The notes below the pieces were generated by a model. The model saw nothing but the letters and a program-made list of their open reading frames with translations, was not told the origin of the DNA and did no database searches. The position numbers and the translations under genes were made by a program. Of a DNA stretch of 64,000 bases, positions 27,916-31,751 are shown one piece after another. The DNA lies in assembly GCA_024742415.1 (NCBI GenBank), contig JANSYN010000006.1:222127-286126 (forward strand), read 5' to 3'. Within the stretch, counting starts at the first letter, position 1. Each line of letters begins with the position of its first letter. This stretch comes from Gammaproteobacteria bacterium. GTDB taxonomy: Bacteria; Pseudomonadota; Gammaproteobacteria; Pseudomonadales; Halieaceae.

Positions 27916-28203
27916 GGAACTCTTCTCCTGATGCTGTGATCGAACGGTGTGCCATTGCAATGCTGGGGTGCACACGCGAAGGCTGCACTGCCACGGTTGC
28001 GCCGCGTCTGTCGCTGCGAGTATTGTGGCCGGCACTTGCGGCAATTGTAGCGCGTACAGGGGTCAATCAGGCGTCAACTGGTTTACCATGGTGCGCCGAT
28101 TGATCCTAACACCGGCCAGTGCCGACTTGCCATGCCTGAACGGTCGCTGCATATTCAACGCATCACCCCCGGCGTCAGAACATCCCACAAGGAGATCCAA
28201 GCA

Positions 28204-29046
28204 ATGAACAAGCTCTACACCGCGATAGCGACCTCACTACTGCTACTGTGCAGCAGCGCCCTGGTCAGCGCCGATACGCACAACGCCCAACTGCAGGCCG
28301 TTATTGACAGTCGCAGTGAAGAAGATCGCAGCCGTGATGCTGCGCGCCACCCTGGCGAAACCCTCGCATTCTTCCAGGTAAAACCGGGCATGACCGTTGC
28401 CGAGGGCTTGCCCGGCAGGGGCTGGTACACCACGATTCTGGCCAACTACCTCGGCAGCGAAGGCACGCTCTACGGCGTGAACTATGCCGAGCGTATGTGG
28501 CCGATGTTCGGTTGGGATGACGAGCTGGTTGCCTCGCGGGTTGCATTGACTGCGCAGTTTCCGCAGATGGTCGCCTCGCTCACAGACAACGGCATCAAGG
28601 CACAGGGCTTTACGTTTGAATCGGTCCCCGAAGACGTGGTCGGCACCGTGGACCGCGTGCTGTTGATTCGTGCATTACACAATCTCAACCGTTTTGAAAA
28701 AGACGGCGCAACTGCCAGCAAAGCGCTGCAATCAGTGCATGAAATGCTCAAACCCGATGGCCTGGTCGGCGTGGTGCAGCACCGTGCGCCTGAGTCCGCA
28801 AGCGATGCCAGTGCCAGTGGTCATCGCGGCTACCTGAAACAGTCCGCCGTTATTGCACTGTTTGAAAAAGCCGGCTTTGAGCTGGTCCAGAGCAGCGAGA
28901 TCAACGCCAATCCCAAAGACATGCCGGGTGAAGACGCTATCGTATGGCGCCTGGCGCCGACGCTGCGCGGCACACAAGAGACCGCAACGGAACGCGCCGC
29001 TATCGGCGAATCAGACCGCATGACCCTGTTGTTCCGCAAGCAGTAA
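28204..29046 (+). CDS. Predicted exported class I SAM-dependent methyltransferase (COG4798-like)
   Basis: Signal peptide MNKLYTAIATSLLLLCSSALVSA; FFQVKPGMTVAEGLPGRGWYTTILANYLGSEGTLYGV. Confidence 0.85.
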   Translation: MNKLYTAIATSLLLLCSSALVSADTHNAQLQAVIDSRSEEDRSRDAARHPGETLAFFQVKPGMTVAEGLPGRGWYTTILANYLGSEGTLYGVNYAERMWPMFGWDDELVASRVALTAQFPQMVASLTDNGIKAQGFTFESVPEDVVGTVDRVLLIRALHNLNRFEKDGATASKALQSVHEMLKPDGLVGVVQHRAPESASDASASGHRGYLKQSAVIALFEKAGFELVQSSEINANPKDMPGEDAIVWRLAPTLRGTQETATERAAIGESDRMTLLFRKQ

Positions 29047-29080: not shown

Positions 29081-30106
29081 TCACGCGCCCTGCAGGTAGG
29101 GCGCGGTCATTTCCTCGGAGACCGCCCACAGACGCTGCGCCATCGGCACATCAAATATATGGTGATCACCGCTCACGTTGACCGGATTGCAGTCTTCAAA
29201 ATACGCGCCGCTGACACCCTTGATGGCCGGATGGGTTGCCACATACACCTGCGTCGCCGCACCCTGGGCGGGTGATTTGGCGATGACGCCACCGAACAGG
29301 TCAAAGGCAGAACGCAGCCAGCCCGGCGCGGTGCGCGCGATGTTGGTTTTGACCAGGCCGGGATGAATCACATTGGAAGTTACCCCTGTGCCTTGCAGGC
29401 GCCGCGACAGCTCCAGAGAAAACAGCGCGTTGGCAAGTTTGGAACGGCCATAGGCCTGCTGCGCGTCAAACACCCCCTCGCCGCGCAGGTTGTCGAAGTC
29501 GATGCCTTGCGCGGGCGCACCGGTATACGCAGAGCGGCTGCCTACATGCACAATGCGCGCACTGCCAGCAGCACGTAACGCGGGCAACAGGTGGTTGATC
29601 AACACAAAGTGGCCAAGGTGATTCACAACAAACATCTTCTCAATGCCGTTGACCAGTTCCAACTCACCGAAGGTGTTAATGCCCGCGTTGCAGATCACCA
29701 CATTGGGCAGCAGGTTCTGCGCCTGCAATTGCGCCGCGCAATCCACTGCCGATTGAAAGCTGGACAGCTCCAGCGCTACCGGGGTGGCCTTGCCCTCGAC
29801 ACTGGCGCAGGCCTGGGCTGCTTTTTCCAGCGTGCGACCGGTGCCAATCACGTGAGCGCCACGCAGGGCCAGCACGCGCAGCGTTTCGTAACCCAGGCCG
29901 GAGTTGCAGCCCGTCACCAGCACGGTTTGTCCGGCCAGGTCCATGCCTGCGGTGACCTCTTCGGCGGTTGATTCAGCGCCGAACGGCCCGTTGGGCAGGC
30001 TCGTGTCTACAGTCACTGTGGGTCCGTCAGTGCCACAGCCCGCGACCAGTGGTGTAGCGGCCGCCACGGCCGATAGTTGCAACATGCGTCTGCGACCCAG
30101 GTCCAT
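29081..30106 (-). CDS. Short-chain dehydrogenase/reductase with Tat-like/lipoprotein signal
   Basis: MDLGRRRMLQLSAVAAATPLVAGCGTDG leader; TVLVTGCNSGLGYETLR and YGRSKLAN motifs. Confidence 0.88.
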   Translation of the reverse strand: MDLGRRRMLQLSAVAAATPLVAGCGTDGPTVTVDTSLPNGPFGAESTAEEVTAGMDLAGQTVLVTGCNSGLGYETLRVLALRGAHVIGTGRTLEKAAQACASVEGKATPVALELSSFQSAVDCAAQLQAQNLLPNVVICNAGINTFGELELVNGIEKMFVVNHLGHFVLINHLLPALRAAGSARIVHVGSRSAYTGAPAQGIDFDNLRGEGVFDAQQAYGRSKLANALFSLELSRRLQGTGVTSNVIHPGLVKTNIARTAPGWLRSAFDLFGGVIAKSPAQGAATQVYVATHPAIKGVSGAYFEDCNPVNVSGDHHIFDVPMAQRLWAVSEEMTAPYLQGA

Positions 30107-30227
30107 TGTTGTTCTCTCCAGCGGTAATCAGGGAGCGCTAGTTTAGCCGCCCCTGACGGTAGCGGATACGCCTGCATTATTCGTTTTTAGAATATCGTAT
30201 TATAATAAAATATCATGCAGTTATTTC

Positions 30228-30255
30228 TTGAGTAATCGCCAAGGCTCCCTATACT
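30228..30255 (+). promoter_or_regulatory. Sigma70-like promoter candidate
   Basis: TTGAGT (30228-30233), 16-bp spacer, TATACT (30250-30255). Confidence 0.55.
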
Positions 30256-30261
30256 GGATTT

Positions 30262-30460
30262 GTGGCGGTTATTGGGTGACTCCAATTTTGAGGGCAACCG
30301 TCACTTTAAAGGGAAAGCTGACAGACATTTGTCAGAGGTGTTTGTCGCCAGGGGACGTTTTTCGGTTTGCGGGCCGAAACTTGGTTTCTGGGCAGAATTT
30401 GAAAGAGCTTTTACCCTATACAGCGCCGTCGCTACCTGCCTTGCGACGGCGCTTTTTTAT
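30262..30460 (+). ncRNA. Candidate structured small RNA or long attenuation leader upstream of gpsA
   Basis: Promoter-like sequence, nested 5' hairpin, two further hairpins, perfect 10-bp terminator stem; no supported CDS. Confidence 0.5.
30423..30460 (+). terminator. Strong intrinsic terminator
   Basis: GCGCCGTCGC-TACCTGCCTT-GCGACGGCGC followed by TTTTTTAT. Confidence 0.92.
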
Positions 30461-30589: not shown

Positions 30590-31585
30590 TTGCATGTAGC
30601 CGTATTGGGCGGAGGGTCCTGGGGCACGACTGTCGCTGCGCTGGTCTGTCGCAAAGCCAACGTTCAGCTGTGGGCCCGCAACGCCGACACCGTTGCCCAG
30701 ATCAACACACAGCACACCAACACCACCTACCTGCCCGATGCACAACTGCCGGACAAACTCGTCGCCAGCACAGACCTGGGCGCGGTGGTGCGCGGCGCCG
30801 ATGTCGTCATTATGGGCATTCCCTCGCAATATTTTCGCGCGGTGCTGAACGACATCAAACCGCTGCTGCTTCCCGACACCCCTGTCATCAGCCTCAGCAA
30901 AGGGCTGGAAGCCGACACCCTTCTGCGCATGACCGAAATCATTGCACAGGTACTGCCCGAGCACCCGGCCGGCGTAATGACCGGCCCTAATCTGGCGCGC
31001 GAAGTCATGGCGGGTAAGGCCGCGGCCAGTGTGATTGCCATGGCTGACGCCTCTCGCATACCACCGTTACAGGCCGCTATCGGCAGCGGGCTGTTTCGCG
31101 TTTACTCCAATACCGACGTCATCGGTTGCGAACTCGGCGGAGTCCTCAAAAACATTATTGCGATTGCCGTAGGCATGGGCGATGGCCGCGGCGCCGGGGA
31201 TAACACTCGCGCAGCCCTCATTACCCGCGGGCTGGCGGAAGTCACGCGCCTGGGCGTGGCGATGGGCGGCAAGCCTGAAACTTTCGCGGGGCTGGCCGGC
31301 ATGGGCGACATGATCGCGACTTGCACCAGCCCACAGAGCCGCAATCACCATGTTGGCGTGGAACTGGGCAAGGGCCGCAAGCCGGCCGATGTTCTTGGTG
31401 AGATGGTCATGGTAGCCGAGGGCGCACGCAGCGCACCGGCCGTGATGGCACTGGCCGAACAGTACGGTGTCGAGATGCCCATCGCGGCGGAGGTTCACCG
31501 TGTACTGTCCGGCAAATCCAATGCGAGCAAGGCCTTCCGGGGGCTGTTGCGTGTGGTTGCGGGCGCGGAATCCGAGCCGGGATAA
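30590..31585 (+). CDS. gpsA: NAD(P)-dependent glycerol-3-phosphate dehydrogenase; TTG start
   Basis: VAVLGGGSWGTTVAAL, TGPNLAREVMAGKAAASVIA, GGVLKNIIAIAVGMGDG. Confidence 0.96.
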   Translation: MHVAVLGGGSWGTTVAALVCRKANVQLWARNADTVAQINTQHTNTTYLPDAQLPDKLVASTDLGAVVRGADVVIMGIPSQYFRAVLNDIKPLLLPDTPVISLSKGLEADTLLRMTEIIAQVLPEHPAGVMTGPNLAREVMAGKAAASVIAMADASRIPPLQAAIGSGLFRVYSNTDVIGCELGGVLKNIIAIAVGMGDGRGAGDNTRAALITRGLAEVTRLGVAMGGKPETFAGLAGMGDMIATCTSPQSRNHHVGVELGKGRKPADVLGEMVMVAEGARSAPAVMALAEQYGVEMPIAAEVHRVLSGKSNASKAFRGLLRVVAGAESEPG

Positions 31586-31694: not shown

Positions 31695-31751
31695 GAATAC
31701 AAATACAACGACAAATACAACGACAAATACAACGACAAATACAACGACAAT
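31695..31751. repeat. 12-bp tandem repeat (TACAACGACAAA), 4 copies plus partial
   Basis: Units at 31704, 31716, 31728, 31740 read directly. Confidence 0.93.

Follow-up and report, generated by a model that had tools for sequence, protein, structure and literature searches.

Within the window, a 64,000-nt stretch of the genome of a Halieaceae bacterium, sequence comparison supports a free-standing gene for a structured RNA of ~198 nt, previously undescribed and predicted to have its own promoter and terminator (Table 1). On balance, and with some reserve, we read it as a Halieaceae small RNA (sRNA) whose promoter would be governed by an operator, which would pair with targets in trans through its loops and which may be bound by Hfq. 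The homologous loci keep promoter, structure and terminator as a single unit, and three features expected of an sRNA gene, namely its own conserved promoter, a covarying structure and an intrinsic terminator with a U-run, are found here. An earlier note on this DNA had proposed an independent transcription unit of about 200 nt, a proposal upheld by this joint conservation, by covariation and by the lack of any Rfam match, all of them arguments from sequence.

The promoter pointed out in that note consists of TTGAGT (30228-30233) and TATACT (30250-30255); it is conserved in relatives and is the sole sigma-70-like match in 1 kb, where 0.3 would be expected. RNA polymerase would start at ~30262 and transcription would end close to 30459, at a strong intrinsic terminator. 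The 10-bp stem and T-run claimed for this terminator are confirmed (30423-30432 with 30443-30452, then T6), and both-sided changes were seen in nine of its 11 aligned pairs among 30 sequences.

Table 1. Coordinates of the predicted RNA gene, its structural elements and its neighbours in the window
Feature	Position	Strand	Remarks
AT-rich block with inverted half-sites (GaWATAAC..., GAtATAA, ATATCATnnnGTTATTTCTTG)	30170..30230	+	conserved in 32 aligned loci
Sigma-70-like promoter TTGAGT-N16-TATACT	30228..30255	+	TTG and TATACT-like hexamer kept in the aligned loci
Structured small RNA (predicted)	30262..30459	+	~198 nt; ends placed from promoter and terminator
5' hairpin	30262..30304	+	outer stem GUGGCGGUU/AACCGUCAC, inner stem AUUGG/CCAAU
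P1, 5' strand GGGAAAGC	30311..30318	+	long-range closing helix; 93% of cells paired; in minimum-energy structure
P1, 3' strand GCUUUUACCC	30407..30416	+	pairs with 30311-30318; from alignment and minimum-energy structure
P2 hairpin	30320..30346	+	7 of 11 pairs with both-sided changes
P3 (GCC/GGC + GGG/UCU)	30347..30393	+	encloses conserved joint GCCANRGGRACG and P4; from alignment
P4 hairpin UUUUCGG/CCGAAA	30358..30380	+	5 of 7 pairs with both-sided changes
Intrinsic terminator	30423..30458	+	10 G-C-rich pairs and U6; stem 30423-30432 / 30443-30452
gpsA, NAD(P)H-dependent glycerol-3-phosphate dehydrogenase	30590..31585	+	TTG start; outside RNA unit
SDR-family oxidoreductase	29081..30106	-	divergent neighbour
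Methyltransferase-like secreted protein gene	28132-29046		conserved upstream neighbour of RNA; no Pfam or NCBIfam match

The segment 30262-30459 has a folding energy of -81 kcal/mol (z = -4.95), which no dinucleotide shuffle out of 200 equalled; with the promoter included (30228-30460) the z-score is -4.4. The minimum-energy structure of the segment matches the conserved fold, and the transcript would accordingly begin with a 5' hairpin and end with the terminator, between them a branched domain in which P1 encloses P2 and P3/P4. The 5' hairpin proposed in the earlier note (GGCGGTT, 30264-30270, with AACCGTC, 30296-30302) is present; all 14 pairs of the hairpin are changed on both sides among 30 sequences, several are significant in the tree-aware test described below, and its loop reads GCAUGGG in most genera. 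The hairpin TTTCGG/CCGAAA (30360-30379) likewise stood and is our P4, with the loop UUUGCGGG in this genome as opposed to UAGCGGG in most genera. A third suggested hairpin, CTGACA/TGTCAG at 30318-30335, had to be given up: the letters are there but the pairing breaks in relatives (e.g. CTGGCA...TGTCAC), and this unconserved stem is replaced by the longer, conserved and covarying P2 helix of GACAGACAUUU (30320-30330) with AGGUGUUUGUC (30336-30346). The loop of P2 with its flanks, UUWGUCAGAG, is nearly invariant across the family, whereas the P2 stem covaries. The long-range P1 helix had not been among the elements first listed.

Of the cells in an alignment of 30 sequences 91% are paired, and 39 of the 58 pairs have changed on both sides, with a covariation score of 0.354 against at most 0.091 in controls with slid partners. 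We also applied a tree-aware test modelled on R-scape, in which parsimony substitution counts on a FastTree tree are redistributed at random, the statistic is the APC-corrected G and pairs are called significant at E<=0.05. With 35 sequences 17 of 58 pairs were significant (simulations: mean 0.03, maximum 1) and with 30 sequences seven of 58 (simulations: mean 0.12), in alignments fitted to a covariance model, a procedure that favours the structure. In a stricter version covering all column pairs two pairs remained, and both belong to the structure. Model-based alignments were used because MAFFT, applied to just the core, put P4 in the wrong place; the initial MAFFT-only alignment of eight sequences already contained 13 pairs with both-sided changes. 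Covariation in relatives, which the earlier note had set as a check on its candidate, is thus present, at 17 of 58 pairs in these model-fitted alignments.

A DNA search detected the RNA region in eight of 18 related genomes, and the first covariance model, built from those eight sequences, found matches in 13 of 18 genomes of the genus and in 33 of 140 Halieaceae genomes, spanning nine of 28 genera. A second model, and a search for the promoter element, added divergent copies in four further genera (g32, g10, g31 and g23, the last at 42 bits), bringing the total to ~37 of 140 Halieaceae genomes and at least 13 genera. The conservation among relatives asked of the candidate is therefore found both within the genus and across the family. 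Named carriers include Pseudohalioglobus sediminis, Pseudohalioglobus lutimaris, Mangrovimicrobium sediminis, and Haliea and Halioglobus MAGs. In 392 genomes sampled from other families of the order no covariance model match was accepted: the candidates there (L040, L042-L052; none above 32 bits) were rejected, resting on the terminator where alignments were inspected, and one of them lies where a sucD-like coding sequence ends. Exact-pattern matches in other phyla were in no case confirmed by the covariance model. Within the genus, five genomes of 3.0-3.3 Mb have the RNA missing or degenerate, and its absence or decay in this small-genome clade indicates that it is dispensable rather than essential. 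One genome (G006; L111, ~1480-1620) has the RNA deleted, so that the RNA promoter directly precedes that of a HAD-PlsC acyltransferase gene. Two others (L118 in G020 and L110 in G005) retain the promoter and operator block, but unrelated sequence stands where the RNA core would follow, an arrangement that is either a remnant or a replaced transcript.

No Rfam 15 family matches the RNA at gathering score, whether in the window itself or at nine homologous loci; the only match at that score elsewhere in the window is a tRNA. At relaxed E-values the nearest were the Burkholderia sRNA ncS025 (RF02869), ncS54 (RF02871) and mmgR/suhB (RF00519) at 16-18 bits; these have a similar G-C-rich terminator, and were rejected since they stay below half of their gathering thresholds with scores carried mainly by the terminator. 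The literature search returned nothing relevant on this RNA. With neither an Rfam 15 match nor a description in the literature searched, it would represent a new family of a known kind of RNA. The earlier note had not recognized the RNA as 6S, tmRNA, RNase P, SRP or Rsm RNA, and this holds: none of these matches, and GGA loops of the Rsm type are lacking. Alignment inspection found no series of GGA in hairpin loops as in CsrA-titrating RsmX/Y/Z-type RNAs; the UUWGUCAGAG and UAGCGGG loops are without GGA, a GGA in the 5' loop is variable, and one GGA is conserved in a joint. The RNA resembles 6S RNA (RF00013) in being ~190-200 nt, highly structured and free-standing, but it does not match the 6S model and its branched fold of three domains differs from the long rod with central bubble of 6S.

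Upstream of the promoter lies a conserved AT-rich block of ~60 bp with the pattern GAWATAACC-N3-GGTTAT, GANATAA, ATATCAT-N3-G(T/A)(T/A)ATTTCTTG in all 32 loci, its distal half being degenerate in this genome. The proximal 21-mer is single-copy in this genome and in most of those bearing the RNA, and is rare elsewhere; its reversed control pattern had a single match in 140 genomes. This block is probably a multi-site operator, a palindromic array that would govern the promoter. As it is nearly unique and sits upstream of the promoter, expression of the RNA is probably tightly regulated, and the arrangement suggests that a dedicated regulator binds at several sites, possibly a tetramer of the LysR-like type. 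Other operator-like sites were isolated and not convincing, and were rejected. One genome (G074, contig C155; L113, ~1500-1620) has a second operator and promoter block directly before a gene for a secreted-looking protein of 359 aa (MAYSAKSTLSENW...), so the regulator may, in some species, have targets besides the RNA gene.

The main alternative raised at the outset was a gpsA leader that terminates transcription conditionally, in the manner of a riboswitch or attenuator. Such leaders share with our RNA a structured transcript, an intrinsic terminator and a metabolic gene downstream, and a same-strand lipid-metabolism gene does follow in nearly all loci, into which a small fraction of transcripts could read through. 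That gene, however, is a HAD-PlsC acyltransferase in 24 loci and gpsA in seven, gpsA being downstream only in a subset of the genus, and in one locus (L016) no homologous downstream gene was seen; the RNA has persisted while its neighbour changed. Upstream, in 32 loci, lies either a conserved small methyltransferase-like gene, assigned by appearance in the absence of any Pfam or NCBIfam match, or the divergent SDR gene. The acyltransferase gene moreover has its own conserved promoter-like sequence aatnCGCTATGCTt (-10 GCTATGCT) and a ribosome site after the terminator. The terminator arms were no more complementary to the RNA upstream of them than in shuffled sequence (13.7 against 15.5 and 14.6 against 15.5), so no antiterminator is seen, though the terminator arms have diverged. 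These comparisons show the RNA, as far as gene order and sequence can tell, to be independent of the downstream gene and not a gpsA leader; we regard conditional termination as improbable. Even less probable is that the transcript encodes a protein or a leader peptide. In this genome two ORFs, of 85 and 123 aa, overlap the region, and AUG-GGG-UGA occurs in the 5' loop of some relatives; on inspection of the alignment, however, reading frames and stop codons prove not to be preserved and the tiny ORF varies by genus, many indels are not multiples of three, and substitutions track base pairs. Downstream, 3' of gpsA, a perfect 12-bp tandem repeat (ACAAATACAACG x 4.3) at 31699-31750 precedes the likely start of a D-alanyl-D-alanine-carboxypeptidase-like gene.

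How the RNA acts is a matter on which the near-invariant P2 loop, the covarying stem that carries it, an Hfq gene in the genome (PF17209 at 100 bits) and the U-rich terminator bear together, and a trans-acting sRNA that pairs with its targets would be the most economical reading of them. Pairing would take place through UUWGUCAGAG and, in most genera, also through GCAUGGG of the 5' hairpin, and Hfq may bind the U-rich 3' end. OxyS, PhrS and RyhB exemplify trans-acting sRNAs that depend on Hfq and have a promoter and terminator of their own; our RNA is like this class in its intergenic free-standing gene, its apparently dedicated and regulated promoter, the U-tailed terminator, the unpaired conserved loop and a length of ~200 nt, and unlike it in being larger and more structured, with a branched core closed over a long range, and in its lack of Rfam similarity. 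A search of this genome for complements of the seed gave eight sites other than the RNA itself, and only that in ihfA is at a start codon, where 10 nt in codons 3-6 (CTCTGACAAA; L138, G000:C12:200304-200335) are complementary to the P2 loop. In the genus the ihfA site reads CTCTGAC in 11 RNA-bearing genomes with the match and CTCTTAC in five without the RNA, the latter five probably forming one clade. The complementarity is not kept in the other RNA-bearing genera and no conserved target was found; ihfA is only a weak lead. Conservation in the internal core (RGCCANRGGRACG, CCGGUAGCGGGCCGG) exceeds what is usual for a seed-type sRNA, and for this reason an RNA that binds a protein or ligand fits too. 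6S and Csr RNAs bind and sequester proteins, and a structured scaffold of that manner, or one that binds a ligand, is the main rival to trans pairing, though in our judgement an unlikely one. The invariant joints and loops around the P1-closed branched core, kept across genera, and the strength of the fold (z = -4.95) speak for it; against it, the RNA resembles neither 6S nor any other Rfam family in a genome that has its own 6S gene elsewhere (G000:C8), one conserved GGA in a joint stands in place of a series of GGA loops, and the P4 loop differs in the window's genus and in g31. Tentatively, the invariant core of UUWGUCAGAG, RGCCANRGGRACG and CCGGUAGCGGGCCGG might mark a new class of free-standing Halieaceae RNA that binds a protein or ligand, is switched on by its own dedicated regulator and differs from an ordinary antisense sRNA.

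Whether by trans pairing, which we favour, or otherwise, the sequence would represent a new family of RNAs, with no counterpart in Rfam 15, in the widespread marine family Halieaceae, for which the literature searched describes no regulatory RNA of its own. The loss of the RNA in a small-genome clade offers a natural comparison, and with a covariance model, a single-copy operator and cultured hosts (Pseudohalioglobus, Mangrovimicrobium) in hand, its expression, regulator and targets are directly testable.
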